DNA from: an uncultured Flavobacteriaceae bacterium
GTDB lineage: Bacteria > Bacteroidota > Bacteroidia > Flavobacteriales > Flavobacteriaceae
Direction: 5' to 3'
Assembly: GCA_947497145.1 (NCBI GenBank)
Contig: CANMFQ010000010.1
Location: 124,001-188,000, forward strand
DNA: 64,000 bases
Shown piece by piece: positions 4,132-39,349 of the stretch. The notes under the pieces are model-generated. The model did no database searches, was not told where the DNA came from, and saw only the letters and a program-made list of their open reading frames with translations. Numbering within the stretch: the stretch's first letter is position 1; each line of letters begins with the position of its first letter. The translations under genes and the position numbers were made by a program.

Positions 4132-4189
4132 AGTGTCCCATTCTTGGTCTTTTTTAGTAGTTTCGGTAATTAACGTTTTATGGGACACT
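4132..4189. repeat. 10-bp inverted repeat flanking the recombinase 5' region
   Basis: AGTGTCCCAT at 4132-4141 and its exact reverse complement ATGGGACACT at 4180-4189 face each other across 38 bp. The right arm ends at the base before the recombinase ATG. Serine resolvases commonly bind inverted pairs in a res site just upstream of their own gene and repress themselves there. This spacing fits a subsite or operator, but that role is inference. Confidence 0.5.
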
Positions 4190-4756
4190 ATGATCGTAGG
4201 TTATGCCAGAGTATCAACTAAAGACCAATCCTTGGATTCACAGAAAGGTCTTCTTGAAAAAGCGGGTTGTGAACACATTTATTCCGATGTTGCCAGCGGC
4301 ACCAGGGATGACAGAAAGGGGCTAAACGAAATGCTGAAATATCTCCGGAAAGGGGATACGGTAATCACTTATAAAAATGATAGGATGTTTAGGTCGCTGA
4401 AGAATATGATAGACCTGATAGATACCTTTAATGAAAGGGGAGTGAATTTCAAGAGCCTAAGCGAACCGGAGTTCGATACCACTTCCGCCAACGGGAAGTT
4501 CCTACTTCAGATATTCGCATCCGTGGCCGAATTCGAACGTAACCTAATTTCGGAACGAACAAAGATGGGTCTGGCCAATGCGCGGAAAAGAAAAAAACAT
4601 TTGGGTAGGCCAAAGGGCACCTCAAATATTACCAAAGAAAAATACCATTTTGCAAGACACCTTTATGACAACATGAACGTGCCTATCAGGGAAGCGTGCA
4701 CTAGAGCTGGCATAAGTAAAAGTTCATTTTACAGGGTCGAAAAAGAAATAGCCTAA
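4190..4756 (+). CDS. Serine recombinase (resolvase/invertase family)
   Basis: This protein of 188 residues starts MIVGYARVST, with catalytic S9 preceded by R7. Further family marks are the DVASGTRDDR segment, the NDRMFRS motif holding active-site arginines, the FASVAEFERNLI segment of the long helix, and a C-terminal helix-turn-helix. It is normal length for small serine recombinases that invert or resolve DNA. A GTG 57 bases upstream would add a non-conserved N-terminal tail, so the ATG at 4190 is chosen. It follows a GC-rich catabolic operon and precedes a gene desert, and it is the only intact mobility gene in the window. Confidence 0.9.
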   Translation: MIVGYARVSTKDQSLDSQKGLLEKAGCEHIYSDVASGTRDDRKGLNEMLKYLRKGDTVITYKNDRMFRSLKNMIDLIDTFNERGVNFKSLSEPEFDTTSANGKFLLQIFASVAEFERNLISERTKMGLANARKRKKHLGRPKGTSNITKEKYHFARHLYDNMNVPIREACTRAGISKSSFYRVEKEIA

Positions 4757-13900: not shown

Positions 13901-15462
13901 GGGTATCAGGTGGTACACCTCCTTATAGTTATTCAGTAGATAATGCGACGCCCATACTTTTTACCGATACTCAAACAACAATTACAGGCCTATCAAATGA
14001 TAGTCATAGTATTGATGTGACCGATAGTAATGGTTGTGCTCTTCAACAATTTACAATGATACGATCAGAGCCAATTACATATACAGGCACACGCAGTTTT
14101 ACCATGGAGGCTTGCGAAGACACATATGCTTTTAGTTTAGATAGTAACCTCTTCACAGGGGCAACTCCTTTTGCTGGAGGTAATGACTACCTCTATGAAT
14201 GGCGCGGTCCAAATAATTTTGTCACTCAAGATATTACAAGTTTTGAAGCAGAAGTAGGCACCTATTTTCTTACCGTTATAGATGCCAATAACTGTGAATC
14301 AAGTGAAATTGAATTCTCCTTTTCGCCTGCCTATGCGCCTATTGCAGTTGAAAATATAATTCAACCCGTAAGTTGCGGATCAGATAATGATGGAAGCATT
14401 CAAATAAATATTAGCGGTGGCGTTCGCCCTTATACTATTTCTTGGGAAATAGAAACACCGGGCAATGAAGCGAATCCTAACCCAGTATTTACGCCTTTAC
14501 CATTAAATACAACACGATTAAATAATCTTGAAACTGGTAGAATAAGACTCACTGTTACTAGTGATATTGCAGGATGCACGCAAGAAAACGAGGCAAATTA
14601 TTACCAAGAAGTTTATACTATTCCAAAAGCGGAATCGCTCCGCCTAGTAGATGGTCCTTATTTAGATGAAAACTTATGTATTGGAAACCCTGGTAATATT
14701 ACTGTAACCATATTTAATGCACAACAAGGCGATCTTAGCTTTTATTATCAAAATAACTTGGTATCTGCTATTGAAACTGGTGAAGATACGTACAGGGTTC
14801 AAATTCCCGATCCGGTTGAGACAGCTATCTTGAACGTTGTTAATGATCAAGGTTGTGGGTTTACTATGCCTTTAGAAACTAGAGTAGCAACTCCTTCTTT
14901 TAGTTACACGTCAGAAGATCTTGAAGCCACGGGACTCTTGTTAATAAAAAAAGATATCCGCTTTACCAATACAACAGTAGATGCCCATAGCCAAGCAATA
15001 TGGGATTTTGGTGATGGCAGTGCTCCGTTAACAGTAAACCCAGAAGTAGACGGTACAGTAACCCAGCATGCATATAACTTCTCGGGCGAGTATGAAGTAA
15101 CGCTCAGTACTGTCAATGCGCAAGGTTGTTCAAAACAAATGGTACAAAACATACAAGTTGGCGATACATATAAAATAGTCTTCCCCGATGCATTCTCCCC
15201 TAATGCCGACGGCATAAATGATTATTTTCAAGGTAAATTTGCAGGCATTAGTAAGTTTGAATTTCAAATATATGATATGTGGGGCGCCCTAGTATATTCG
15301 ACAAAGCACGACCATGATTCAGCACCTACAAATTGGGGTTGGAACGGTACTTACTCAAACAGAAAACCTTACCAACAGTTCTCTTTTAGATACGTTTTTA
15401 AAGGGTATACAGGTGAAAATATAGAAATTATCAAAACAGGCGAAGCCACAATAATAAGATAA
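7927..15462 (+). CDS. Giant SprB-like surface adhesin with T9SS C-terminal signal
   Basis: The 2511-residue protein begins with a signal peptide (about residues 1-25). From about residue 170 to 1515 I count 14 imperfect repeats of about 95 residues. Each has an I/V-C-x-x-x-x-P opening, a central YQW-type tryptophan and a YRR motif before a closing Cys, which is an Ig-like beta-sandwich pattern. Residues about 1515-2290 hold SprB-type modules (SCYDQNDGSI, GVYVLQVSD). A PKD domain (WDFGDGS) sits near 2358. The last 95 residues (FPDAFSPNADGIND to the end) are the gliding-motility-associated C-terminal domain that directs type IX secretion. It should be displayed on the cell surface for adhesion or gliding. 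The following gene is its SprF-like partner. Confidence 0.9.
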   Translation: MFKSIVKFVVFLIIANLTTWYGVAQTTVDLENTTFSTCGNALPTAIISLGTLTFSETTATDFSINNNTFFIQAPSNFEISTTTATSMGSDISAISVTQVSGNPSRLQVQINVTATATIDVFSIENVQIQLISGATATDGQLVYIEGAANALNGLANNAILETITFTPNSGGTGVDQSVCAIADVQNITVIDDNVTQSRTYAWDVLDNGVWTAIPSSNTEALTVDTATFPNGISTYRRATSFSLYGETCTLYSSSAVITVNEIYPGSITEGTNQNICANETPEVLNSTSDVAVTPSGGVATYQWYENSTGTWTAITGANDSFYQPGALSETTSFRRRITNSYGSFSCFEETNPVSIIVNAVVAGGTTTDQNICALADIQLLTVNNGENTGTYQWQKNISGTWEDIAGATQGTYDASGNLTPGISMFRRITRLSGVSCEGISTVSTITYTDFTVGSISGAQTICYNEVPTSLTSTSEASGSGTISYQWEIFDGTDWNAIAGATLVSYQPAALQESTSYRRRDRIELNGFSCTDVTNEIRIEVLDDINGGVAVADQTLCVGETPTAITITGGTAANQNISYQWQSRTSGSFANMVGETDPSLTIPSSPANTTEYRRQTLVSNNGEVCFENSTVSTIFINKITPGVIGNDQDICRGAVPNTLVSISNTIAEGSVTYNWESSSDNGTTWQAIGGATGTTHNPGSFTNNMQFRRLDISTLNGKVCSAYTNTIRINVAGEIEGGTGSSEQTICEDALPTTLTVTGATPAGTGVNFQWYASPDAVTYSIITGETGEELDVSSPITETTYYRRSVTVTSNGNTCTAFSTPTKVTLLALDAGTISQTQTVCDTGTVNTITSTEDAVSNGTITYTWQDSDDGNTWVDIASTDQATYTPALPTETEKYYRRKATAVLNGLQCVVFTDGVIVYANRFVMGNTHRVTFSGGETGSIDVCTNSVLGALRGNFMLTATGDLTYQWQVSNDNITFSDIGGATSPTYNPPMITADIFYRRITTSTLNGISCELISNVLEIRNGGLATPGEINTTNPNDTPGLGEEVICRGTIPSPIVETTAATGPNLTYEWFANGQLIAGETGINYTPTNAITATTNYVRTTYSTQPNGAVCEVSTEEERVLVPQADNIGSDQIICTNSLPETLGDSSLVEGLPYLNFQWYRSTDGVTFNSILGATSVTYTPNTPFTADAYFYRAYTVIIAGTSCGPEIQSNTVKITVNNVDGGTISEDQKICYGEDPAVINSTAAGTARGILSYQWYSSLDNSNWVIINQANNSTFDPEPKTVTTYYRRATVSSSSVIDPSIPNVDCTAFSNTIVIEVAEEIRPGILEENQTLCVGDTPATLTVTNGSTYSDQTIAWYSSLDGIIFTDIGVNTASYTPPILSQTTHYKRRITRTSLGTLTCFEETNTVTLMVNDINPGSIGENQEVCEGEQPDVLTEITGATATGSINYQWLSSTDNQTYTEVSGAIGANFLPPTTLATSTYFKRRSIVILNGQSCFADTDPVLVTIIPTLFIDNDAIIANDITDASCNGSSDGSISITNLRITGGNSAQAQENTITLFGSPEVGTTYSIIINSKVYEHEVQLNGSSQTQTHEEIIQALVQNINNATGSNLSDVIASLDNERLILTAKVAGTGFTAYASTDSTTNAGASSVITKENKAPNSYLWTKTDDTSFSATTLNISGVTAGVYFLTITNDMCQVTSEPFVVSEPEELTLAIGDTCNAALTAASMGGVPPYTFTISRPDGTQQTSTSSSANITYTGLTGGATYTITVQDASCAIPVSESVTLPFGLQFDAASVLVNNVSCYDQNDGSISLNNGATTITGGSAPYNFNWTGPNNASYNTDNISNLSPGVYVLQVSDQLGCTATYTANVASKTALQINNVQVVNQRLQCAGDTNAEIGVQISADPSSMLQIEWLKNGTNFINNNTNIGNLGAGTYEVIVTDTNSNPDAPCRVSRSFEIIEPEPFLAVNISGSTSNCYDEDASRSFSFRVSGGTPPYSYSVDNATPILFTDTQTTITGLSNDSHSIDVTDSNGCALQQFTMIRSEPITYTGTRSFTMEACEDTYAFSLDSNLFTGATPFAGGNDYLYEWRGPNNFVTQDITSFEAEVGTYFLTVIDANNCESSEIEFSFSPAYAPIAVENIIQPVSCGSDNDGSIQINISGGVRPYTISWEIETPGNEANPNPVFTPLPLNTTRLNNLETGRIRLTVTSDIAGCTQENEANYYQEVYTIPKAESLRLVDGPYLDENLCIGNPGNITVTIFNAQQGDLSFYYQNNLVSAIETGEDTYRVQIPDPVETAILNVVNDQGCGFTMPLETRVATPSFSYTSEDLEATGLLLIKKDIRFTNTTVDAHSQAIWDFGDGSAPLTVNPEVDGTVTQHAYNFSGEYEVTLSTVNAQGCSKQMVQNIQVGDTYKIVFPDAFSPNADGINDYFQGKFAGISKFEFQIYDMWGALVYSTKHDHDSAPTNWGWNGTYSNRKPYQQFSFRYVFKGYTGENIEIIKTGEATIIR

Positions 15463-16472
15463 TGAAGGTACCTATTAAATGGTTTACAGTTTTATTACTT
15501 TTGCTAGTTACTCAAAACTATGCACAGGATAAGTTTATTCAAAACCTTAGCAAAGTACCTGCATTTTTGAATCCTAGTTTTTATGCTTTTAAAGATAGAA
15601 CACAAATTGGTGTTTTAGGAGAAATAACGAGTCAAAGTATCGGTACACAATCAGAGCATAAATACGCCTTTGGTTCCACTCAGTTTGAGGAATATAATTT
15701 TCAACTGGCTTTTGACTTTTTTAGCAATTCACTTAAAAACGGTGGGTATAATTATTCAACCGCTGCTTCTACTTTTGTTTACAAATTAAAACTGCCCAAC
15801 GAATGGCTACTCTATCCTGGTATTACAGGAGCCTATAGTCGATATAAGTTTGATTTTAGTAACCTCACATTTCAAGATCAGATTAATATTTTTTCAGGGG
15901 AAATTAGCTCAAATACAATTGATCCTGTTGCAGCATACAATAGCGTTGGATATATGGATTTAGGGGCTTCAGTTATGATGCATAATGATGAGAATATGAT
16001 CATTGGCCTATCATTTAAACACATCAATAAACCTCGCTTGTCTTCAGAATTATCTGAATCAGGAGGAAACAGGGTATACCTAAAAATGCTAGTCTCAGGT
16101 CAATTTGGGTATGAGCTCGATATTAATAAATATGGTTTAGCTAAAATTCCGAAACATTCGTATTTGTATTTTTATAATAGCGTATCACTGCAAGGGAGTA
16201 CCACAAGGTTTGATTTTTACCAAGATGCCACTCTAGGGAATTTCAGTTTCGGTATAAACCAGCATTTCAATTTTATGGAGGCTTTTTCATTTTCTGAAAT
16301 TGGCGTATCCTCTAGTATAACTTTTGAAACTTTTGAACTGGGTGTTAATTACCGAATACCCTTTGGAAATCAAGCAAAAGTATATATCCCCAATGCTTTA
16401 GAGCTATTTTTAACCTTCAATATTTCAAGATTCAAAGAACGTAGAAGATCAAATTATAGCAGGTTTTACTAA
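15462..16472 (+). CDS. PorP/SprF family type IX secretion membrane protein
   Basis: This 336-residue outer-membrane protein has a signal peptide (to about residue 21) and beta-barrel-type alternation. The segment KVPAFLNPSFYAFKDRTQIG after the signal, with an Asn-Pro near the mature N-terminus, is typical of PorP/SprF proteins. These are needed to export or anchor specific large cargo with a gliding-type C-terminal domain. The ATG overlaps the adhesin stop by one base (TAATG), so the two are one transcription and translation unit, as with SprB and SprF. The stop also overlaps the convergent DUF1080 gene's stop. Confidence 0.85.
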   Translation: MKVPIKWFTVLLLLLVTQNYAQDKFIQNLSKVPAFLNPSFYAFKDRTQIGVLGEITSQSIGTQSEHKYAFGSTQFEEYNFQLAFDFFSNSLKNGGYNYSTAASTFVYKLKLPNEWLLYPGITGAYSRYKFDFSNLTFQDQINIFSGEISSNTIDPVAAYNSVGYMDLGASVMMHNDENMIIGLSFKHINKPRLSSELSESGGNRVYLKMLVSGQFGYELDINKYGLAKIPKHSYLYFYNSVSLQGSTTRFDFYQDATLGNFSFGINQHFNFMEAFSFSEIGVSSSITFETFELGVNYRIPFGNQAKVYIPNALELFLTFNISRFKERRRSNYSRFY

Positions 16473-29270: not shown

Positions 29271-29696
29271 TTACTTTACAAATAACGCATCATATATCTT
29301 TTGCACCGCCCAATTACCCAAGGGAAAATATACGGCAAAAAATAAAGCCATGCCTAAAGAGAAGTTACGCACATTAAACCACTGATCTAGCAAATTATTG
29401 GGATACGCGTAGGAAGTCTCCAAGGCATATCCTAAAAACTCTAATACACACATGGCTATTAAGCCATAAGCATATTGCATATGAAAAGGTAGTTTGCGAA
29501 GCAACAAAGAAATAGGCACCATATACAGGATATAACAGGTAATTATTTGCCACCAATAAGTGAATTTGGCAATCTCCATCTGTGCACCAAACCAGTTCAT
29601 CCCTAGGCCCCATAAAAAATAAACGACACAATAAATACCGATTAGTCTTTTATCAACGCTTAATTTAGCCTTCGCCCATATAATAAATGTTGTCAT
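29271..29696 (-). CDS. Hypothetical membrane protein at the end of the type III PKS operon
   Basis: A 141-residue protein with about four hydrophobic helices (near 18-38, 47-65, 75-92 and 112-132). No family recognised. It lies 62 bases downstream of the acyl carrier protein on the same strand and is the last gene of the biosynthetic run, so it may help localise or move a lipid product. That is inference from position. Confidence 0.6.
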   Translation of the reverse strand: MTTFIIWAKAKLSVDKRLIGIYCVVYFLWGLGMNWFGAQMEIAKFTYWWQIITCYILYMVPISLLLRKLPFHMQYAYGLIAMCVLEFLGYALETSYAYPNNLLDQWFNVRNFSLGMALFFAVYFPLGNWAVQKIYDALFVK

Positions 29697-29758
29697 TATA
29701 GCTATTAAATAATAAATTCAAATAAATAGTGTAAATTACTTAAAATCAATTATATAAT

Positions 29759-30013
29759 TTATTTATTCTTGATTTTAGCATCAATTATCTGTAAAGCATC
29801 TTTGACTGTTAAGAGCTTATCCATATCTTCATTTTCAAGAATGATATCAAAAGCATCCTCCACATCTAAAACAATATCTACCAAATTGGCTGAATTAATA
29901 TTGAGCTCATCAATAAAGTGGCTATCTTGAGTTACCTGATCAATGCTAACATCTTCTGGCAGGTATATTTTTATGATTTCGCGTAATTTTTGATACCGTA
30001 CTTCTTTATCCAT
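29759..30013 (-). CDS. Acyl carrier protein
   Basis: An 84-residue acidic helical protein of normal ACP length. The phosphopantetheine Ser is expected in ELNINSANLVD, where the usual DSL reads NSA. A helix LDVEDAFDI follows, like the acidic helix II that docks partner enzymes. It sits 82 bases downstream of a ketosynthase gene inside the type III PKS operon, so it is probably a dedicated carrier rather than the housekeeping AcpP. The Asp-to-Asn change before the Ser may limit which transferase loads it. Confidence 0.8.
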   Translation of the reverse strand: MDKEVRYQKLREIIKIYLPEDVSIDQVTQDSHFIDELNINSANLVDIVLDVEDAFDIILENEDMDKLLTVKDALQIIDAKIKNK

Positions 30014-30095
30014 ATCGTGAATTATCCTTTTAAAAACTCTTTAATTAAAACTTCAATAATAATCATATAGTTATTTTCAAATTAAATTTAACAAA

Positions 30096-31370
30096 CTAAT
30101 CGTTACAATCTTTAAAAATAACACAGGCATTTACATCACCAAAACCAAAACTAGCTTTGGCTATTATTTTAGGTGCATGTGGTATGGTTTGCTGGGGTAT
30201 TTTACTAGCAGCAACATAGTTTAAAATTTGTGGGTGGATATCCTCACAATTTACATTTCCAAACACCTGTCCTTTCTTCAGCTGTAGTACAGTGCCAACA
30301 CACTCAATACTCCCTGAAGCAGCCAAACAATGCCCCACAAGCCCCTTAAAAGAGTTTACATACGGGAAATCTTCTCCTTGCAATTCGAGGGCTTTGCTCC
30401 AGTTTTCAATCTCAAGAGGGTCTTTTGCAGTTGCAGTAAGGTGTCCGTTAATACTATCAATAGCTATGTTTTTAATTCCTGCATTTGCTACAGCCTGCCG
30501 AATACAGCGTTGAACAGCTTCGCTATTGGGTGCTGTCATGCTCCCTTCTCCACGTTGTCCTCCACTATTTACTGCGCCTCCTAATACTTCAGCATAGACA
30601 GGAGCATTGCGAGCTTTTGCACTTTCTAAAGATTCTAAAACCAATGCTCCTGCTCCACTACCGGGTACAAATCCCGCAGCTGTAGCACTCATGGGTCGAC
30701 TTGCTTTGGTAGGGTCTTGGTTATAATTACGCGGCAAAATACGCATGGCATCAAAACCACCCCAAACATAGGGGCCGCTATCACTGCAGCTACCCGTCAA
30801 AATACGCTCCGCCTTACCCGAAGCAATACGCTCATACGCCATTAAAACCCCTTCTGTACCGGTAGTGCAAGCTGATGAATTGGTAGTCACCTGATTGCCA
30901 CAACCTAAAATGCCTCCTAAATAAGCACTGATACCACTTGCCATGGTTTGCAAAACAGTAGTACTACCTAGGCGCCGTACCTGTTTATCATCAACCAAAT
31001 GAATAGATTCTCTTAATTTATCAATTCCTAAAATGCCTGTACCAAAAAGAATACCACTATCCCAATCTGGAGTTTCTTTTGAGGCAAATTCCAAACCGGC
31101 ATCTTGCCAAGCATCAACACCAGCAATCACCCCATAAACAATGCCGCTAGCATTTAAGCCTCGTAACTGCAAGGGAGTAAAATAATGACTTCTTAAATTG
31201 TCTTTCACTAAAGGCTCAGCAGCTATTTGGCATCCAAATTTAAGGGTTTCTAATTGTGGTTGAAAACGCACGCCACTCACCCCCGTTTGTAATGCCTTTG
31301 TAAAATTATGCAAACCTACCCCGTTAGGAGCGCAAACACCCAGACCAGTAATAACGACGCGTCTACCCAT
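30096..31370 (-). CDS. Beta-ketoacyl-ACP synthase (KAS II-like)
   Basis: The 424-residue protein has the thiolase-fold condensing-enzyme triad: C168 in SSACTTG, H310 in INGHLTAT and H347 in FKGLVGHCLAASG. The C-H-H set and length match FabF-type enzymes that elongate acyl-ACP with malonyl-ACP. It overlaps the dehydratase gene by eight bases, so the two are translationally coupled. Context suggests it builds the acyl chain that the type III PKS uses. It may have a chain-length preference different from the primary FabF. Confidence 0.85.
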   Translation of the reverse strand: MGRRVVITGLGVCAPNGVGLHNFTKALQTGVSGVRFQPQLETLKFGCQIAAEPLVKDNLRSHYFTPLQLRGLNASGIVYGVIAGVDAWQDAGLEFASKETPDWDSGILFGTGILGIDKLRESIHLVDDKQVRRLGSTTVLQTMASGISAYLGGILGCGNQVTTNSSACTTGTEGVLMAYERIASGKAERILTGSCSDSGPYVWGGFDAMRILPRNYNQDPTKASRPMSATAAGFVPGSGAGALVLESLESAKARNAPVYAEVLGGAVNSGGQRGEGSMTAPNSEAVQRCIRQAVANAGIKNIAIDSINGHLTATAKDPLEIENWSKALELQGEDFPYVNSFKGLVGHCLAASGSIECVGTVLQLKKGQVFGNVNCEDIHPQILNYVAASKIPQQTIPHAPKIIAKASFGFGDVNACVIFKDCND

Positions 31371-31812
31371 TTTTGTGCGATTTTATCATGCCAGCGATTA
31401 CACCTGTACAAACTACTTCATTAGAGGCATTATACATTTTTACCCTACATTTTAACTTATGAAACCGAAAATACAGCTTCTCAGAAACAACCCGTACTTT
31501 TTCATCAGGAAATACAGGTTTATAAAACTGCATTTCAGTGCTACTGAGTCCAATTTGTAGGTCTTTTACATCTGTTTGCTCCTGCATCATTAGAAATACA
31601 CCCAAACTAACCACGCCTATTTGAGCACAACATTCCGTTAAAATTACGCCAGGCGTTACTGTAAAATCTTTAAAATGCCCTGCGTAAAAACTCGCCTCTT
31701 TGCAAAAAGTATACACTCCTTCTGCTCCATTTGCATCCATATGTGTGAGTGCGTCTACAAACAGAAACGGCTTCTTATAAGGAAGTTGCGATATAATTTC
31801 GTTGTAATTCAT
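31363..31812 (-). CDS. FabZ-like 3-hydroxyacyl-ACP dehydratase
   Basis: The 149-residue hot-dog-fold protein has the FabZ pattern: YAGHFKDFTVTPGVILTE, with the catalytic His in GHF and the Glu in ILTE, and an LPYKKPFLFVD opening. It should dehydrate 3-hydroxyacyl-ACP. It lies six bases after the enoyl-reductase-like gene and overlaps the ketosynthase. Together with those genes and the ACP it forms most of a fatty-acid elongation cycle. Confidence 0.85.
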   Translation of the reverse strand: MNYNEIISQLPYKKPFLFVDALTHMDANGAEGVYTFCKEASFYAGHFKDFTVTPGVILTECCAQIGVVSLGVFLMMQEQTDVKDLQIGLSSTEMQFYKPVFPDEKVRVVSEKLYFRFHKLKCRVKMYNASNEVVCTGVIAGMIKSHKNG

Positions 31813-31818
31813 TTATTC

Positions 31819-32610
31819 TTATTGTAGGCTTTCGCCGCCATCTACTTTGATAACCGTACCCGTAATCCATTTTGCCTCATCTGTACTCAATAAATACACC
31901 ACATTAGCCACATCTTCAGGTGTTGTAAGTCTTTTATTAGGATTTCGAATAAGTGCATTTTTTTTCAACGATTTATTACCAGGAATCATCAAAAACGATT
32001 TTGTTTCAGTAATACCCGCTTGAATACAATTAGCCTTAATACCTATATGAGCAAATTCAAGAGCAATATTACGAATGAGCGCCTCTAATGCCACTTTAGC
32101 AACCGACACAGCACCATAATTCATCCATGCCTTTCTATTTCCTTCGCTTGTAAAGGCAACAATACGCGCATCAGAAGCAAATAATTTAGCTGTAACCAAA
32201 TCTTTAGTCCAATCATAAAGGCTCAACGCCATAGCTTCTAGGGTGATTTGAAAATCTTGTTGATTCAATGTTGGCTGGTTTTTTGATTGCATCGGTTTTA
32301 AACTACCTTTAGCAATACTATGCACAACGAGTTTAATTTTAATAGTATCACCCATGAATGACTGCATCTCTTGAATTATCAGCTTTCTTTTTTCCTTGTT
32401 TGTGGCATCAATATTAAATGTTTTTACACACACACCAAGCGTGCTTATTTCTTGAAAATCAGCCCTTATTTTGGGCAAATCAGCTCTTCTATCTCGGTGA
32501 ATAATAATTAAATTATAGTTATGCTTAGCCATTTTTACCGCAGTAGCCAAGCCTAGTCCGCTGCTTCCGCCCAATATTAGCACACAATCATTTTTACCCA
32601 CATCATTCAT
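31819..32610 (-). CDS. SDR oxidoreductase, FabI-like enoyl-ACP reductase
   Basis: The 263-residue Rossmann protein has an N-terminal GGSSGLG nucleotide motif, a VVHSIAKG segment like the LVHSIA of FabI, and Y165 followed by K172 (Y-x6-K) in NYGAVSVAKVALEA. The Y-x6-K spacing is that of FabI enoyl reductases, while classical ketoreductases have Y-x3-K. I therefore read it as an enoyl-ACP reductase completing the elongation cycle. A dedicated ketoreductase is not present in the operon and would have to come from primary metabolism. Annotating it simply as an SDR would also be fair. Confidence 0.7.
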   Translation of the reverse strand: MNDVGKNDCVLILGGSSGLGLATAVKMAKHNYNLIIIHRDRRADLPKIRADFQEISTLGVCVKTFNIDATNKEKRKLIIQEMQSFMGDTIKIKLVVHSIAKGSLKPMQSKNQPTLNQQDFQITLEAMALSLYDWTKDLVTAKLFASDARIVAFTSEGNRKAWMNYGAVSVAKVALEALIRNIALEFAHIGIKANCIQAGITETKSFLMIPGNKSLKKNALIRNPNKRLTTPEDVANVVYLLSTDEAKWITGTVIKVDGGESLQ

Positions 32611-32716
32611 AAAACCCTCTTTTTAACCCGTTTTAAGCTTCAATTCAAAATTCAAATACATCATTTGGGCATAAACTGTTTTAATTTTAGCTGCATTAAA
32701 ACTCGGAGGGACAAAA

Positions 32717-33772
32717 TCACCATTCTAACAAAACACGTTGTGCAGAAAAACCAGGACCAAAACTTAGCACCAAGCCCTGTTCACCTTCTTTTATGTCTTT
32801 CTCTAAAAAACGCTCTAACACATATAACACCGTTGCACTACTCATATTTCCGTAGGCGCGCAAAACCTCTCGGGTATCATCAATATTTTTTCCTAAGGTA
32901 CCAAATAAAGCTTCAACTGTTTGTACAATTTTACGACCTCCAGGATGAAAAATCAAATGGTCTACCTTTTCTATGGTGCTTCCATAGCGCTCTAAAAACG
33001 GATGTACAATCTGTGGAAAATGAGCAGCAATGGTTTCTGGCACACTAGGATCAAGAATCATCTTTAAACCCGTATTGGTAACACCAAACCCCATTAAGTG
33101 GGTAGCATCAGTAAAATGATACATCTCCTCTCCTATTATTTTAGGGCCAGTAGCCGCTGCTTCAGAAGACAGTAGCACACAGGCAGCACCATCACCAAAA
33201 ATGGCTGCACTTACCATATTAGCCATTGAATAATCATTTAACTGAAAGGTTGCTGTTGGGCTCTCTACAGCAACTACTGCGACACGCTTTTCAGGATTAG
33301 AGCGTAAAAAGTTTTTGGCATATATTAAGCCCGAAACTCCAGCCGCACAACCCATTTCTGTTACTGGTAAACGCACCACATCTTGTTTTAAGCCCAAATC
33401 ATTTATAAGATAGGCATCCAAAGAAGGTATCATAATGCCAGTGCAACTAACCGTTATGATATAATCTAAAGAATCTGCTTGCCATCCGCTCTGGTCTAGG
33501 GCTTTTTTCAAGACTTCTTTACCTAGTTTTTTAACCTCACGCACATAAATAGCATTTTTCTCTTCAAAAGAAGTTGCTGTAAATACCTCTTCAATATTCA
33601 TAATGCCGTAGCGCTTGTCTACCGCAGCTCCTTCAAATATTTTGATGACCTTTCTGCGAAAGCGGTCATCTTCATTGGCCAGCCATTGGTCTAAAAAAGG
33701 TATTATTTCCTGCGTAGTACGGCAATACGGCGGCAGTACTTTAGTGGCGGCAACTATTCGTGTTTCATTCAT
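32717..33772 (-). CDS. Type III polyketide synthase (chalcone/stilbene synthase family)
   Basis: A 351-residue protein of standard type III PKS length with the Cys-His-Asn triad: C142 in TEMGCAAGVSG, H276 in LIFHPGGR and N309 in RAYGNMSSAT. The LSFGPGFSAQ near the C-terminus is also diagnostic. These enzymes condense an acyl starter with malonyl-CoA and cyclise it to resorcinols, resorcylic acids or pyrones. It is followed by a FAS-II-like module and preceded, 10 bases upstream, by a methyltransferase. A long-chain acyl starter and a phenolic-lipid or pyrone product are inferred. Confidence 0.92.
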   Translation of the reverse strand: MNETRIVAATKVLPPYCRTTQEIIPFLDQWLANEDDRFRRKVIKIFEGAAVDKRYGIMNIEEVFTATSFEEKNAIYVREVKKLGKEVLKKALDQSGWQADSLDYIITVSCTGIMIPSLDAYLINDLGLKQDVVRLPVTEMGCAAGVSGLIYAKNFLRSNPEKRVAVVAVESPTATFQLNDYSMANMVSAAIFGDGAACVLLSSEAAATGPKIIGEEMYHFTDATHLMGFGVTNTGLKMILDPSVPETIAAHFPQIVHPFLERYGSTIEKVDHLIFHPGGRKIVQTVEALFGTLGKNIDDTREVLRAYGNMSSATVLYVLERFLEKDIKEGEQGLVLSFGPGFSAQRVLLEW

Positions 33773-33782
33773 ATTGTTTACT

Positions 33783-34496
33783 TCATCTATTTGACTTTAC
33801 TACCCACAGGTAGCGAAAAGCCCATTTCCATTGAATAGTATGACTGGCCTGAGGCAGCCATTTTGAATACTGAACTAAATCTGATTTAATAAAACTACGT
33901 TTAATTGAAATTAATCCATCTATTTTTGCAGTTTTAGTTTTAATAAAAAACAGACTAAAGAGCATATAAAGATAATAAGCCCATACACTTCGATGCAAAT
34001 CGTTAATTATAAACCCAATACTTGCCAATTGGTTAAATTTTTTGAGAAATACACCTAATTCTGCATCTTTAAAATGATGCATAGTAAGCGTACTTACCAC
34101 TATATCTGCATTAAAATCAGCTGCTTTAAGATCTAAAATATCCGCTTGTACATACTCAATCTCATCATATTCGCTAGACGCTTCTTGCGCTAATTGCAAA
34201 ATATCTTTGCTTAAATCAATACCAATACAACGTAGGTTAATGGTTTGATTTCGAAAGTAATTAGCAATGGCGCGCAACATGGCTCCATCTCCGCACCCCA
34301 TATCAATGATCGTATATTGTTCTTGAGGGTATTCGCGCATTAATTTTGTTATAGCCTTTATGGTTATGTTGCTACCCCCTAAAATGGCATTTACATTATT
34401 AATATCGTTAAAAAGCAAACGCAAATCATTTAAATCTCCTTTAAAATCATCCATTAGCTCAGCTTCTTCGCTTCTTTTCGACACATCTACTAACAT
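33783..34496 (-). CDS. SAM-dependent methyltransferase
   Basis: The 237-residue protein has a class I methyltransferase fold. Motif I is IDMGCGDGAMLRA and the acidic loop is IGIDLSKDIL. It overlaps the FAD oxidoreductase stop by seven bases and ends 10 bases before the PKS, so it is probably a tailoring enzyme that methylates the polyketide product on oxygen or carbon. Methyltransferases beside type III PKS genes are known in other bacteria (for example the srs and bps loci); the reaction here is inferred. Confidence 0.8.
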   Translation of the reverse strand: MLVDVSKRSEEAELMDDFKGDLNDLRLLFNDINNVNAILGGSNITIKAITKLMREYPQEQYTIIDMGCGDGAMLRAIANYFRNQTINLRCIGIDLSKDILQLAQEASSEYDEIEYVQADILDLKAADFNADIVVSTLTMHHFKDAELGVFLKKFNQLASIGFIINDLHRSVWAYYLYMLFSLFFIKTKTAKIDGLISIKRSFIKSDLVQYSKWLPQASHTIQWKWAFRYLWVVKSNR

Positions 34497-35617
34497 GCTA
34501 TGGGTTTTCCGTGAGTAGTTTTTATCAATGTACCTAATAAAAAGGGCGAAATTGTAGCCGTTTTAATAGCAAGTTCGGATAATTTCTCATTTAAAAGCAG
34601 CGACTGTAGTTGCCTTCCCATCCATAAACGCCGCCCAAATGTTTGCCGCCATTGCAATGCATACGCTGTTTCTAATTTGGTACGACTGTAATCCTTATCG
34701 TTCAAATACTTGTGAATACCTGCTGCTGCTATTTTAGCCGAATGTATTGCCATAGCCATACCATTACCGCAAAGCGGATGAATTAAACCCGCAGTATCAC
34801 CACACATAATCATATGGTTTTCTACCGCTTTTTTAGGCGCAAAAGAAATTTGAGCAATGGTCAAAGGAGTATCAAAAACTGGGCTAGCCTTTTCAAGAAA
34901 ACGATGTAGAAATGGATTTTTAGCCACAATATTCGCATTGAAATCTTCAATGCTTTTTTCTTTTTGAAAACTGCTATATGCTGTTAGGTAGCAAAAATTT
35001 ACAGTTCCTTTTTCTGTTTTTGATAAACCGCCATACCCACCTTTAAAGTTATGAAGGGCTACTTTGTTTTCTGGAAATGATTCGTATTCATAATGTGATT
35101 TTACCGCCAGCCAGGCTGATTTTTCGTTAATAAAATTGCGGTTTAGCTTCTTATCTAAACTACTACGCTTACCATAAGCACCAATTACAACCCTTGAAGT
35201 ATAACTTAAATTAGATTCAGTAACTACTTTAAAATCATCGTTTATAAAAGAAACGGATGCGACTGCTTCAAACTCAAAATTAACACCATTCTCCATTGCT
35301 TTTTGGTACAGCAAATTATCAAAAGCGTAGCGACTAATACCTATACCGCCTAATGCTAGTTTAGTGCTTGTAGATTGCCCAGAAGCCGTGCTTAATTGAA
35401 AGGTATTAATTTGCACCGCACCCATAGTGTTTAACTCAACACCAAGTGATTTTAAATACGGAAGAATTTCATTAGAAACATATTCTCCACACACCTTATG
35501 ATGAGGATAGGCCTTTTTCTCAAGAACCAAAACCTTGTGTTTTTCTTGAGATAAATGAATGGCAACCGTTAAACCCGCCAAACCACCACCAACAATAATG
35601 ACATCATAATGTTTCAC
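34490..35617 (-). CDS. FAD-dependent oxidoreductase, geranylgeranyl-reductase/monooxygenase type
   Basis: From a GTG at 35615-35617 the product is about 375 residues and begins VKHYDVIIVGGGLAG, the dinucleotide-binding motif at the usual place. A longer frame from a TTG at 35668 adds 17 unlikely residues. The HHKVCGEYVS segment and CGDTAGLIHPLCGNGMA near 300 are FAD-contact features of the geranylgeranyl-reductase/halogenase/hydroxylase group. It is the first gene of the biosynthetic operon. Hydroxylation or oxidation of the polyketide ring to a quinone is plausible; reduction of double bonds is the alternative. Confidence 0.8.
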   Translation of the reverse strand: MKHYDVIIVGGGLAGLTVAIHLSQEKHKVLVLEKKAYPHHKVCGEYVSNEILPYLKSLGVELNTMGAVQINTFQLSTASGQSTSTKLALGGIGISRYAFDNLLYQKAMENGVNFEFEAVASVSFINDDFKVVTESNLSYTSRVVIGAYGKRSSLDKKLNRNFINEKSAWLAVKSHYEYESFPENKVALHNFKGGYGGLSKTEKGTVNFCYLTAYSSFQKEKSIEDFNANIVAKNPFLHRFLEKASPVFDTPLTIAQISFAPKKAVENHMIMCGDTAGLIHPLCGNGMAMAIHSAKIAAAGIHKYLNDKDYSRTKLETAYALQWRQTFGRRLWMGRQLQSLLLNEKLSELAIKTATISPFLLGTLIKTTHGKPIAC

Positions 35618-35808
35618 GGGTGAAAGATAGGAATTAAACCTAAACCATATGATAAAACCTACTATCAATTAATATTAATCCTACAGTGGAATTATGGCTG
35701 GTTTATGTAGAGGATTAAAGGTAAACAGATAAAAAGTCTTTTTTAGGAATTACATACAACTTATAATAAGAATATGATTTTCATCTAAGACAAGTTGGGA
35801 AGGTTATT

Positions 35809-36198
35809 CTAAAACTCAAAACCTTTAATAGGGGAAGAAACATCAACTAAAGCCCCATTAGGGTCTTTCAACAATAACCGCCTTTGCCCGTAAAACGTGT
35901 CTTTAGGTTCACTTATGATTTCAAATTTCTCCAATGTCGCAATTTTAAATACTTCGTCTGCATCATCTACTACAAACGTAACATAAAACCCTTGTGGGTT
36001 GTTTTGAAAATCACTCGGTACTATTTCACTTGTTCTGCTAATTATTCCTAATTCCAGCTTTTTGTCTTTAGCGATTAGGTGAACAAACCAATCAGTATCA
36101 AACTCGACCTTAAAATCGAACAGTTTGGTGTAAAAATCTCGACTTTCTGCTAAATTATCCGAACAAATATTGGTCATTAACCGATTGATTGTACTCAT
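35809..36198 (-). CDS. VOC family protein (glyoxalase-like fold)
   Basis: The 129-residue single-domain protein starts INRLMTNICSDNLAESRDFY and ends near LLLKDPNGALVDVSSP, with the two beta-alpha-beta-beta-beta modules of the vicinal oxygen chelate fold. Members include glyoxalases, dioxygenases and antibiotic-binding proteins. It is upstream of the PKS operon on the same strand but separated by about 190 bases, so linkage is uncertain. Substrate unknown. Confidence 0.75.
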   Translation of the reverse strand: MSTINRLMTNICSDNLAESRDFYTKLFDFKVEFDTDWFVHLIAKDKKLELGIISRTSEIVPSDFQNNPQGFYVTFVVDDADEVFKIATLEKFEIISEPKDTFYGQRRLLLKDPNGALVDVSSPIKGFEF

Positions 36199-36354
36199 TA
36201 TTTTCTTTTAGTTAGGCTGACTGTTGTTTTATAAAAATACAACAAAAACACCTTTTAAACGGAACATAGTGGCTATAAAAATTTCAATTACCTACAAACA
36301 CTAGCTGTTGTTGTTTTGTCGCTCCTATCTAAAGCTAAATTCTTGAATGGTTAC

Positions 36355-36382
36355 CAGTAAAAAACCACCGTTAAAAACGGTG
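36355..36382 (-). terminator. Rho-independent terminator at the end of the IS remnant
   Basis: An 8-bp perfect stem CCACCGTT/AACGGTGG with a 3-base loop. On the minus strand it is followed by a T run. It lies downstream of the transposase fragment, as terminator-like hairpins do in IS200-type elements. Confidence 0.6.
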
Positions 36383-36399
36383 GCTTTGGTTTTCAGATT

Positions 36400-36412
36400 A
36401 GACCCAAAGGGT
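36400..36412. repeat. Short hairpin near the IS remnant's end
   Basis: GACCC-AAA-GGGTC, a 5-bp stem with a 3-base loop. Subterminal hairpins of this kind are what IS200/IS605 transposases recognise; here it lies about 30 bases from the fragment's stop codon. Confidence 0.4.
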
Positions 36413-36444
36413 CATAACACTCATTTCAAATCATGATGCTCCTG

Positions 36445-36657
36445 TTATTTTACATATCGTCTTATCATAACTTCATCTAAGCCTACTGTGCTTACAAAAT
36501 AACCTCTTGACCAAAACTGATTGCCCCAGTAAGGTTTCTGCTTTAAATTCGGATATGTCTTGAAAAGTTTGATCGCCATGTTTCCTTTCAAAATACCCAT
36601 GTACTCTAAAATAGAAACTCCTTTGATTCTTTTACTAAATTTTTCAGTACTAAATTG
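36445..36657 (-). pseudogene. IS200/IS605-family transposase (TnpA) C-terminal fragment
   Basis: On the minus strand about 70 codons read as the C-terminal half of TnpA: ILEYMGILKGNMAIKLFKTY, then YWGNQFWSRGYFVSTVGLD, then the end RRYVK. GYFVSTVG carries the Tyr helix region of this single-strand transposase family. An in-frame stop precedes it, and the N-terminal half with the HUH motif is missing, so it is dead. Intact relatives are about 140-150 residues. Confidence 0.8.
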
Positions 36658-36707
36658 TCATATTTAAAAGACTTTGGTAACTAAAATAGTAGAGACACCT
36701 CTTAACC

Positions 36708-37214
36708 ATGAAAAAAGAACAGGAAACTATATTTCTACGTGCACTAGAAAACCATCGGGAAAAACTATTTAGAATTTGTTCTATCTATGCTAAAGATGAT
36801 CAAGACGCTAGAGACCTTTTTCAAGAAGTTTTGGTTCATATTTGGAGTTCTATGAACTCATTTAAAGCGAAGTCGTCTATTGGAACTTGGATGTTTAGAA
36901 TTACTTTAAATGTTTGTCTTCGTTTTAAATCCAAGGATACTAAGAACCAAAATAGGTTCATAAGATTAGATAGTATCACCATTGCCAATTTTGAATATGA
37001 AGAAAATAGAGAAGGTGAAAATGAAAAACTTAATGGTTTGAGAAAGTGTGTTAAAGAATTAAATGAAGCGGATAAGGCTATTGTCGCACTTTACTTAGAA
37101 GGGTTAGCTTACAAAGAAATTTCAAGTGTTCTAGGATTATCTGAAAACCACATAGCAGTAAAAATCAAGCGAATCAAAACAAAATTGTTGAATTGTATAA
37201 ATAAAACCTTATGA
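36708..37214 (+). CDS. RNA polymerase sigma factor, ECF type
   Basis: A 168-residue protein of ECF length. Region 2 shows DDQDARDLFQEVLVHIW and a core-binding WMFRITLNVCLR stretch. Region 4 near the C-terminus (ALYLEGLAYKEISSVLGLSE) is the helix-turn-helix that reads the -35 element. The stop overlaps the next start (ATGA), so the following membrane protein is probably its partner or regulator. It follows the dead IS element but looks intact. Confidence 0.85.
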   Translation: MKKEQETIFLRALENHREKLFRICSIYAKDDQDARDLFQEVLVHIWSSMNSFKAKSSIGTWMFRITLNVCLRFKSKDTKNQNRFIRLDSITIANFEYEENREGENEKLNGLRKCVKELNEADKAIVALYLEGLAYKEISSVLGLSENHIAVKIKRIKTKLLNCINKTL

Positions 37215-37798
37215 TAGAAGATGAATTAATTAAAATTTGGCAATCATCTAGCAATCAAGAACGTGTAAAGTTTGAGAAATCTAAATTGATGATTGAATTA
37301 CAATCAAGTTTGGGTCGTTTACATCGTTGGTGGAAATATATAGCACTTTTTGAGATGGCATTGGCAATATTTGGGATTTTAGTAGGTGTTTTTGTTATAT
37401 TCAAAATTCCTTTTGTAATAGTAAAAACAGGGATAGTACTGATAATAGTTTTAGCTATTTATTTGATAATCCAATACAACGGTGTTAACAGCTATAAGCC
37501 AAGCGACTTAGAGGACAGTTATCTTAATTATCTAAAAAAGAACAGGCAATATCTTAAAGCACAAAAGAAGTTCCTTAAAACTTATGTGTATTGGGGAATT
37601 TTACCAGTTTATCCTATAATGCTATTGTTTAACATTGGTCTTTGGGAGAAGGTTCCAGTACATTTTATACTTACAATCAATTTAGCTACAATTGCAATAG
37701 GGATTTATGGATATTTTTTAAATAATAAAAGAGTAAAAAATGAAATTAACCCCCGAATTAAGAGGATTGATAAAGCGATAGAAAGTTTGAGGGAATAG
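37211..37798 (+). CDS. Membrane protein coupled to the ECF sigma factor
   Basis: The 195-residue protein has a cytoplasmic N-terminal helix (about 1-40), two hydrophobic segments near 44-90 and two more near 125-165. It overlaps the sigma gene by four bases. Anti-sigma factors are commonly encoded in this position, but I see no zinc-binding anti-sigma motif, so the regulatory role is inferred from coupling alone. Confidence 0.65.
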   Translation: MIEDELIKIWQSSSNQERVKFEKSKLMIELQSSLGRLHRWWKYIALFEMALAIFGILVGVFVIFKIPFVIVKTGIVLIIVLAIYLIIQYNGVNSYKPSDLEDSYLNYLKKNRQYLKAQKKFLKTYVYWGILPVYPIMLLFNIGLWEKVPVHFILTINLATIAIGIYGYFLNNKRVKNEINPRIKRIDKAIESLRE

Positions 37799-37933
37799 CT
37801 TAAAACAGTGCCTTCATATCTCCTCATAGCATACGGCAATACTAAAAAATACCCATATGGGATATGTAGACTGAGAAAAAGATAGCGCTACCATTCGTCC
37901 ATATTAAGATAAAACCACCTATACCAAAACCAA

Positions 37934-39349
37934 TTATTCCTGATTAGGCTGTGTAAGTTGATATTTTTCATCATACAAACTAAGCTGTCTTTGTTTCCAA
38001 ATGGCTCCTTCTAAAAATACGGGGTGAGGTAGACCAACATCCCAATTCCCTAATTTCTGTAATAATTCTTTTGTTTTATCAATATGCTTTAAAGAAACAT
38101 TGTGTTGTTCAGAAATATCCGTTGGTAAATGATACAACAATGGCAAACGATCTGGAAGCCTTACTAATTTCCAATCACCATCTCTAATTGCCGCGCTAAT
38201 CGTAAAGCGCCATTTTAGCTCTTGATGTGGTAACCTTGTATCTTTATTTAAGAGATATGGCACTAAGTTTACACCGTCAAAATTATCTTCTTCCGTGATT
38301 TTATTTCCCGCCAACTCCAAAAAAGTAGGTGCTATATCTAAGGAAGAAACAGGCTTCGTATATATTGTTCCTGCTTTAAATCTATTTGGCCAATTCATAA
38401 TAAATGGCACATGAATTCCTCCTTCTAACAATACTCCCTTTTGTCCGTTGTAAGGCGCATTTATAGAAGCATTACTATTAGTTGGACCTCCATTATCACT
38501 TATAAAAACGATTAACGTATTTTCTTTTATCCCATAGTTAGCAACCGCTGCCATTATCTTACCCACATTAACATCTAATCGATGTATCATTGCCGCATAA
38601 GTACGTCTTTTGCTATCCTTTATGTGACTATATAACGCTAAATCTTCTTTGGTTGCTTGCATAGGGGCATGTGGTGCATTAAATGAGGCAAACAAAAAGA
38701 AGGGATCATCTTGGTGTCTTTTTATGAACGCAACACATTCATCTCCCTTGTCATCTGTAATATATGTAATAGGCTTAGGCGTTTTATAATTGCATTCAAT
38801 TGGCGATTGATACCCTTTTCCGTCAATAGCAGATGTAAAATAATCATGTCCGCCACCTGTATATCCCCAAAATTCATCAAATCCCCTATTTAAGGGATGA
38901 AATTGAGATTCTTCGCCTAAATGCCACTTTCCAATAAGACCGCTAGTATAACCTAAAGGTTTTAATTTTTTCGCTATTGTTTTTTGAGCTACTGGTAATC
39001 CAAGATATTGTGGGTCAAAACCTGGTTGATTACCTCCAATATTATTATCATACCCATAAGTTACCTGATTAATACCCGTCAATAAGCCAGCACGAGAAGG
39101 ACTGCAAACGGGAGCCGAAACATAACCTTCAGTACATATGACTCCTGTATGCGCAAGTACATCAATATTTGGTGTTTTTATTTGGGTACTCCCATTAAAA
39201 CCAAGATCAGCAAACCCCAGGTCATCGGCTACAATTAAAATAAAATTAGGCTTAGTAGTTGTTGGCGAAATTGTTTCATTTTCAGGTGTTTGCGCCACAA
39301 GTGTTATTGAAAAGAAAAGAATGATTTGAAGTAGCAGGTGGTTTTGCAT
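37934..39349 (-). CDS. Sulfatase (formylglycine-dependent, S1-type)
   Basis: The 471-residue protein has a signal peptide (cut near VAQ, residue 20) and the sulfatase alpha/beta fold. The maturation motif CSPSRAG holds C82, the Cys oxidised to formylglycine. Metal ligands are visible in VADDLG (D42/D43) and VFISDNGG. It should hydrolyse sulfate esters on exported polysaccharides or glycosides in the periplasm or at the surface. It is alone here, not in a polysaccharide-utilisation cluster. An anaerobic-type or FGE maturase is not in the window. Confidence 0.88.
   Translation of the reverse strand: MQNHLLLQIILFFSITLVAQTPENETISPTTTKPNFILIVADDLGFADLGFNGSTQIKTPNIDVLAHTGVICTEGYVSAPVCSPSRAGLLTGINQVTYGYDNNIGGNQPGFDPQYLGLPVAQKTIAKKLKPLGYTSGLIGKWHLGEESQFHPLNRGFDEFWGYTGGGHDYFTSAIDGKGYQSPIECNYKTPKPITYITDDKGDECVAFIKRHQDDPFFLFASFNAPHAPMQATKEDLALYSHIKDSKRRTYAAMIHRLDVNVGKIMAAVANYGIKENTLIVFISDNGGPTNSNASINAPYNGQKGVLLEGGIHVPFIMNWPNRFKAGTIYTKPVSSLDIAPTFLELAGNKITEEDNFDGVNLVPYLLNKDTRLPHQELKWRFTISAAIRDGDWKLVRLPDRLPLLYHLPTDISEQHNVSLKHIDKTKELLQKLGNWDVGLPHPVFLEGAIWKQRQLSLYDEKYQLTQPNQE

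Follow-up and report, generated by a model that had tools for sequence, protein, structure and literature searches.

A conserved Flavobacteriaceae operon combining a type III polyketide synthase with dedicated FAS-II-like enzymes

The 64,000-nucleotide stretch of DNA from an uncultured Flavobacteriaceae bacterium analysed here (the window) contains eight intact minus-strand genes at positions 29271-35617, which encode, in order, an FAD-dependent oxidoreductase, a methyltransferase (MT), a type III polyketide synthase (PKS), an enoyl-ACP reductase (ER), a dehydratase (DH), a β-ketoacyl-ACP synthase (KAS), an acyl carrier protein (ACP) and a small membrane protein. We regard it as probable that these genes specify a single pathway, in which an acyl chain built on the dedicated ACP is handed to the type III PKS and gives rise to a methylated and oxidised phenolic lipid or quinone. 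The gene set and order are those proposed in an earlier, sequence-only reading: all eight frames are intact at their coordinates, and Pfam and NCBIfam searches agree with the assignments, with refinements for the ER and the ACP.

The first gene (34490-35617) encodes a member of the group A flavin monooxygenase/geranylgeranyl-reductase superfamily, as indicated by TIGR02032 (124.5 bits, below the cut-off of 158.8) and by an AlphaFold model (pLDDT 88.2) whose closest solved folds are flavin halogenases and aromatic hydroxylases. Flavin-dependent halogenases carry a WxWxIP motif; despite halogenases being the nearest solved folds, this motif is found in none of the 94 orthologues, and we therefore reject a halogenase function. 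The most likely start is the GTG at 35617, the earliest ATG, GTG or TTG of the frame being a TTG at 35668. This gene overlaps by 7 bases that of the class I SAM methyltransferase (33783-34496; Pfam and NCBIfam, with PRK06202 at 127 bits, below the cut-off of 243), which is followed after 10 bases by the PKS gene (32717-33772). The Pfam domains Chal_sti_synt_N and Chal_sti_synt_C (91.2 and 73.2 bits) place the latter in the type III PKS family, and the previously proposed catalytic triad, Cys142-His276-Asn309, is correct and invariant in all 94 orthologues.

The fatty-acid module begins 106 bases further on with the ER gene (31819-32610). Its product had been read as FabI-like and is here read as probably closer to FabL (enoyl-ACP reductase III): the FabL model heads the 200 matching families, but its 138.3 bits fall short of the cut-off of 328, and a Tyr165-x6-Lys172 pair is present in 78 of the 78 orthologues aligned. 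FabL enzymes have Tyr-x6-Lys without the FabI-type tyrosine ahead of it. After 6 bases comes the gene for a FabZ-like 3-hydroxyacyl-ACP dehydratase (31363-31812; Pfam and NCBIfam, with His46 and Glu60), which overlaps by 8 bases that of a FabF-like KAS (30096-31370; Pfam and NCBIfam) with Cys168, His310, Lys342, His347 and a GFGDVN loop; Cys168-His310-His347, again as first proposed, is invariant in 92/92 orthologues. The ACP gene (29759-30013) lies 82 bases beyond, and carries its phosphopantetheine site, Ser41, in an N-S-A/S motif; the PP-binding match is weak (20.4 bits, just below the Pfam cut-off of 20.8) and the serine is invariant. All catalytic residues checked are invariant among the orthologues examined, the alignments covering 74 of 94 sequences for the MT and 78 of 79 for the ER after exclusion of those with less than 38% identity or short matches. 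The fatty-acid synthase (FAS) part consists only of single-domain KAS, DH, ER and ACP genes, as opposed to a multidomain type I FAS, and no ketoreductase gene lies inside the operon. Elsewhere the genome encodes one other KAS (E<=0.001), which is FabF-like and 33% identical, and a full-length FabG scoring 326.7 bits, above its cut-off. The Bacteroidota promoter pattern TTG-N17-23-TANNTTTG does not occur upstream of the FAD oxidoreductase gene, and is uninformative here because the window contains 8 instances, compared with an average of 10.2 over 50 single-base shuffles. A sigma-70 scan was likewise at shuffle level (25 sites against 22.6), and neither it nor the terminator-like sites (9, compared with 5.2 on average) were used.

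Among 396 sampled genomes of the family, 141 carry an orthologue of the PKS and 139 an orthologue of the KAS; all 139 also have the PKS, and the KAS never occurs without it. In the two remaining genomes the KAS is either cut by a contig end (G304) or not seen, with the DH at the contig end (G150). Given this near-perfect co-occurrence, for which the Fisher test counts genomes as independent, the condition named earlier as refuting the reading, relatives with a PKS but no FAS genes, does not apply within the orthologue group. Across 94 orthologous loci, the FAD oxidoreductase, MT and PKS genes are always present and adjoining, the KAS and ACP genes are present in 92 each, the DH gene in 91 (locus L115, for instance, lacks it) and the ER gene in 79. 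The complete order FAD-MT-PKS-ER-DH-KAS-ACP is seen in 76 loci and the same order minus the ER in 15, and neighbouring gene frames lie no more than 300 bases apart in 532 of 542 cases; this gene order is far beyond chance. The 80 family loci were hand-picked, mostly one per genus, from the 140 PKS genomes besides the window's own, and L013, on a 3 kb contig, was excluded from the 94-locus count; the named loci L180-L259, the best 80 of 558, are all close relatives that overlap the family genomes and are not independent of them. The possibility that the FAS genes are placed elsewhere was also examined: at least three genomes (G202, G340 and G156) have a DH-KAS-ACP block separate from the PKS and G287, with the block on other contigs, is likely to be a fourth. 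Since the separate block is retained in these genomes, the linkage between PKS and FAS genes is functional as well as positional. Together with the conserved order, the co-occurrence upholds the proposal that the FAS-II-like enzymes and the PKS form one functional unit. The PKS is missing from 255 of the 396 genomes, and the operon is therefore dispensable.

The ER is the variable element of the module. It is absent from 15 of the 94 loci, and none of the 15 corresponding genomes, one of them only 84% complete, has an ER homologue (P0005, E<=1e-20), which leads us to reject its relocation. The 8 loci seen in Arenibacter lack the ER. A fully reducing cycle is hence not required, and the saturation of the tail may vary. 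The description of the module as a FAS-II cycle lacking only a ketoreductase accordingly stands as to the missing ketoreductase but not as to a fixed cycle.

In the pathway that we propose, the operon's own ACP would carry an acyl chain that is assembled or lengthened by the KAS and DH, with the ER where present, and with FabG borrowed from the housekeeping pool for the ketoreductase step. The PKS would then take the ACP-borne chain as its starter, most simply directly from the ACP, extend it with malonyl-CoA and cyclise it to an alkylresorcinol or alkylpyrone. Subsequently, the MT and the flavin oxidoreductase may methylate and hydroxylate or oxidise the ring; the resulting methoxylated phenolic lipid or quinone would probably reside in the membrane.

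One close parallel is the ars operon of Azotobacter vinelandii, in which ArsA and ArsD are type I FASs and ArsB and ArsC type III PKSs, the latter thus having a private fatty-acid synthase as here. The ACP domain of ArsA supplies ArsB and ArsC with fatty acyl chains, and a residue at Trp281/Gly284 sets resorcinol versus pyrone cyclisation (PMC6274091). In contrast to ars, the present operon lacks a ketoreductase, encodes separate FAS-II-like proteins together with a free-standing ACP, and has the MT and FAD oxidoreductase genes at its head. Hierridin operons of cyanobacteria encode a methyltransferase (hidA), an oxidoreductase (hidB) and a PKS (hidC), with a C14 acyl-ACP starter proposed for HidC (PMC8086630), while planctomycete PKSs from MT-oxidoreductase-PKS operons yield alkylresorcinols in Corynebacterium (PMC10896814). 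The same three functions are adjacent in our operon, a likeness at the level of function; unlike it, these operons are described, in the available sections of both reports, without an ACP, KAS, DH or ER. Further oxidation of a PKS product also has precedents in Streptomyces griseus srs and Myxococcus ftp, where an alkylresorcinol is converted to an alkylquinone, private FAS genes not being mentioned in the corresponding sections (PMC10896814). Likewise, germicidin synthase (Gcs) and SCO7671 of Streptomyces coelicolor provide a precedent for acyl-ACP use by type III PKSs, there with no mention of a dedicated ACP operon in the section available (PMC6274091). On the best reading of these comparisons, the operon would combine a hierridin-like tailoring trio with a counterpart of Azotobacter ars made up of discrete proteins. 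A bolder version, which we put forward only tentatively, is that it represents the first discrete-protein system of the Azotobacter type, with a private ACP-based FAS-II line feeding a PKS directly, conserved in some two fifths of a large marine family, for the most part at a single chromosomal site, and making a membrane quinone or phenolic lipid whose tail is switched between saturated and polyunsaturated, lineage by lineage, by the presence or absence of the ER.

Flexirubin/aryl polyene and dialkylresorcinol clusters of Bacteroidota also possess a dedicated KAS, dehydratase and ACP, and in aryl polyene/flexirubin clusters an aromatic-acid activating ligase and a ketoreductase stand beside the KAS; none of these clusters is known to contain a type III PKS. 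By analogy with aryl polyenes, where KAS, DH and ACP are so used, the ring might be formed first, the PKS supplying a small aromatic or pyrone acid to the ACP for extension by the KAS and DH, with or without the ER. The top NCBIfam match of the PKS is indeed DpgA (173.8 bits), a polyene would fit the 15 loci that lack the ER, and a related Aequorivita cluster, 69% identical to a PKS of Zobellia galactanivorans, was labelled 'T3pks-arylpolyene' by antiSMASH (PMC6139392). However, the DpgA score is far below the cut-off of 425 bits, and the closest solved chain in the PDB belongs to Pks11, an alpha-pyrone synthase (180.4 bits), which is at most a hint on starter length. Both matches are distant and conflict on product type, a point that also counts against the pathway proposed above. 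Moreover, the ER is present in 79 of the 94 loci, and no acyl-ACP ligase or CoA:ACP transferase is found among the seven family-matched operon proteins, which also include no CLF, AMP-ligase, aromatic lyase or ketoreductase, the conserved neighbours having been judged by eye. We consider this order of events rather improbable.

Slightly less probable still is that a housekeeping acyl-CoA or acyl-ACP feeds the PKS, with the KAS, DH and ACP modifying the chain in another step or making a second acyl group for the PKS product. This would agree with the planctomycete operons, described without private FAS genes in the sections available (PMC10896814), and with locus L177 of this phylum, which has PKS-MT-FAD without FAS genes. 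The phylum sample yielded 90 more distant type III PKS matches at 38% identity or less; at the 26 of these loci examined, some on short stretches, there is no DH, KAS or ACP, and two (L175 and L179) have, 6-8 kb away, an SDR that weakly matches the ER profile. As far as seen, the arrangement is thus confined to one orthologue group, within which the near-perfect co-occurrence of PKS and KAS argues against a housekeeping starter, as does the lack of an acyltransferase among the family-matched proteins. Finally, that the PKS trio lies by chance beside unrelated fatty-acid genes, as the larger gaps before the ER and ACP genes might suggest, is rejected as extremely unlikely in view of the recurrent gene order, the KAS never occurring alone, the blocks retained where the operon is split and the joint absence of the genes at one empty site.

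Preferring the single pathway in which the ACP-borne chain primes the PKS, we note that most type III PKSs rely on the general pool for their starters, and that many members of one family appear here to hold a dedicated carrier and elongation enzymes for such a PKS, which would offer a clean system for studying acyl-ACP to type III PKS transfer. A type III PKS of Zobellia galactanivorans has reportedly been the subject of an earlier study. Type III PKS clusters make up 9% of antiSMASH clusters in Flavobacteriaceae (PMC7440613), and those of this operon are very likely among the ones already counted, the available sections of the surveys being silent on gene order, co-occurrence, mechanism and product (PMC7440613, PMC6139392). 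We found no publication with this architecture or product among the papers listed in a search of open-licence literature, a scope that makes the negative weak evidence. The operon points to a widespread lipid class of marine Flavobacteriaceae for which we found no description, with predictions that can be tested on a lipid extract: a PKS-dependent lipid, and a difference in its tail between strains with and without the ER.

The surroundings of the operon are also conserved. In 62 of the 94 loci it is flanked by an OmpA-family gene of the same strand, a TerC gene lies nearby on the opposite strand in 46, and in one operon-free genus-mate the two are adjacent, forming an empty site; given these recurring neighbours and the empty site, we do not favour a mobile cluster. 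The small membrane protein (29271-29696), 62 bases beyond the ACP gene in the window, is encoded downstream of the ACP gene in 43 of the 94 loci; Pfam searches gave no convincing family (best single-member E 0.0026, families differing between members) and a fold search no match at E<=0.001. In 23 of the 94 loci the ACP is followed by a phosphopantetheinyl transferase, the family of which was checked on one further copy.

The operon occupies 29271-35617 on the minus strand and consists of eight intact reading frames, encoding a flavin oxidoreductase (FAD protein), a methyltransferase (MT), a type III polyketide synthase (PKS), an enoyl reductase (ER), a dehydratase (DH), a ketosynthase (KAS), an acyl carrier protein (ACP) and a small membrane protein, with adjoining genes overlapping by 7-8 bases or separated by gaps of 6-106 bases. 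Pfam and NCBIfam agree with the sequence-only reading in recognizing the PKS, the KAS, a FabZ-like DH, a class I MT and a FAD protein; the SDR-type reductase, which that reading had called FabI-like, is closer to FabL, its best NCBIfam match (138.3 bits, below the cut-off of 328). The ACP matches its family weakly (20.4 bits against a cut-off of 20.8). The FAD protein is a member of the geranylgeranyl-reductase/monooxygenase superfamily (124.5 bits, cut-off 158.8), and the closest folds to its AlphaFold model (pLDDT 88.2) are flavin halogenases and aromatic hydroxylases; the flavin halogenase motif WxWxIP occurs in none of its 94 orthologues. The closest solved relative of the PKS is the alpha-pyrone synthase Pks11.

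We compared 94 orthologous loci: the window, 80 from the Flavobacteriaceae, 3 from outside the family and 10 from the window's genus. The FAD protein, MT and PKS are present in all 94, the KAS and ACP in 92 each, the DH in 91 and the ER in 79. The membrane protein is found in 43 of the loci, and 23 have a phosphopantetheinyl transferase, the family of which was confirmed on one further copy, in locus L271 (Pfam ACPS, 48.1 bits). The complete seven-gene order is seen in 76 loci and the same order without the ER in 15, and only 10 of 542 gaps between adjoining frames exceed 300 bases. Among the best 80 of 558 loci from close relatives, which overlap the genomes above, the set is complete in 63, the ER is absent from 11 (8 in Arenibacter) and short contigs truncate the remaining 6. 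The predicted active sites are invariant: C142, H276 and N309 of the PKS in 94/94 orthologues and C168, H310 and H347 of the KAS in 92/92, both triads as originally read, together with KAS K342 (92/92), DH H46 and E60 (91/91), ER Y165 and K172 (78/78) and ACP S41 (92/92), where the roles of the DH and ER residues and of the KAS lysine are assumed from family knowledge. All 92 KAS orthologues carry the loop GFGDVN, and the other, FabF-like KAS of the window's own genome has GFGGHN. In one locus (L138, genome G217) the KAS is matched by two separate frames, and the match obtained genome-wide begins at residue 52, perhaps reflecting a frameshift or a broken gene. A second, weakly PKS-like protein, 19-22% identical, lies ~6.7-7.9 kb upstream of the PKS in L121, L122, L125, L126, L128, L130 and L134.

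The PKS was detected in 141 of 396 family genomes (E<=1e-60; lowest identity 60%), or in 136 of 329 if only genomes >=90% complete and <=5% contaminated are counted; its absence from 255 of the 396 shows that the operon is dispensable. In the genus of the window's own 5.1 Mb genome (G000, genus code g1), 12 of 14 genomes have it at 79% identity or more. The KAS was found in 139 of the 396 (E<=1e-80), all PKS-positive, an association with a Fisher p of ~8e-107 when genomes are taken as independent, with kinship uncorrected. Relatives retaining the PKS without the fatty-acid genes, which the sequence-only reading held would speak against a dedicated module, did not emerge in the orthologue group, the two remaining PKS genomes having the operon at contig ends (G304, a KAS fragment cut by the end; G150, the DH at the end). 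Both searches match 91 of 237 genera, and in the genera mixed for the PKS among the matches listed (g1, g18, g21, g31, g33, g131, g154) the KAS tracks it every time. L115 is missing the DH. In a few genomes the fatty-acid genes are sited elsewhere: at the PKS site, L116 and L135 keep no more than FAD-MT-PKS-ER, a DH-KAS-ACP block lies elsewhere in their genomes (G202, G340) and in G156, and in G287 DH-KAS-ACP-transferase is on a different contig than the PKS. Even when separated, the two halves are thus retained within one genome.

Across 395 Bacteroidota genomes, PKS matches fall into two sets with a sharp gap between, 33 of at least 67% identity and 90 of at most 38%; three of the former are from outside the family (G483, G535, G642). 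Of the 90 distant loci 26 were examined, some on short stretches; none of the 26 has a DH, KAS or ACP, and two have a weak SDR match 6-8 kb from the PKS. One of the distant loci (L177, genome G468) has an MT (129 bits) and a FAD protein (35 bits) behind the PKS and no fatty-acid genes; the PKS-MT-FAD trio thus exists without the fatty-acid part.

As first noted, the operon has no ketoreductase; a full-length FabG (326.7 bits) is encoded at another site in the genome, where a search at E<=0.001 gave a single further KAS, 33% identical. On the simplest reading, the private KAS, DH and ER, with the housekeeping FabG, would act on the private ACP, from which the PKS would take the chain. Precedents are ArsB and ArsC, which take chains from the ACP domain of ArsA, and Gcs and SCO7671, which take acyl-ACP (PMC6274091). 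Another is given by planctomycete operons for an MT, an oxidoreductase and a PKS, which yield alkylresorcinols in Corynebacterium and in which the role of the FAD protein is described as unresolved (PMC10896814). The proposed mechanism is likely; the ring type, chain, oxidation and role of the product we infer. Type III PKS clusters are described as common in Flavobacteriaceae, at 9% of clusters (PMC7440613), and the PKS of an Aequorivita "T3pks-arylpolyene" cluster shares 69% identity with the one from Zobellia galactanivorans (PMC6139392); PMC12843772 and PMC7477175 simply list T3PKS. Our search of open-licence papers found none on this architecture, co-occurrence or product. Type III PKSs with lipid starters and tailoring enzymes are already known; the apparently new element is the dedicated FAS-II-like line beside one, complete with a private ACP. 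The operon is real and strongly conserved; its enzymes are ordinary, and their combination is unusual and seems not to have been described.

Within the stretches examined, and with Pfam assignments made on the window's copies, 62 of the 94 loci have an OmpA-family gene upstream, and 46 have a TerC gene downstream on the opposite strand. G270 has the operon between these two genes; in its genus-mate G045 they adjoin, ~60 bases apart, with no operon. This is one clear empty site, at which the operon was lost or gained as a whole. Among 12 operon-less genomes queried, only G045 has this arrangement, the other 11 having the flanking gene(s) missing or apart. That the operon is widely retained, often at a constant position, would favor a physiological lipid over an occasional antibiotic. 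ER presence changes at least 11 times, as a rough number, on a FastTree of PKS plus KAS (92 rows, 15 without ER), and a genome-wide search at E<=1e-20 found no ER homologue in any of the 15 ER-minus genomes, one of which is 84% complete. Relative to the PKS, the OmpA gene has a median position of -2.8 kb in those 62 loci and lies at -6.8 kb in the window, so ~4 kb seems inserted here. Between the operon and this neighbor (35809-39349) are a glyoxalase (Pfam) and, both assigned by eye, a sulfatase and an ECF-type sigma factor accompanied by a partner. Further away, a 2511-aa repeat-rich frame directly followed by a 336-aa frame (7927-16472) may encode a gliding-motility/adhesin protein and a partner similar to PorP/SprF, and the frame at 4133-4756 resembles, by eye, a serine recombinase/resolvase.
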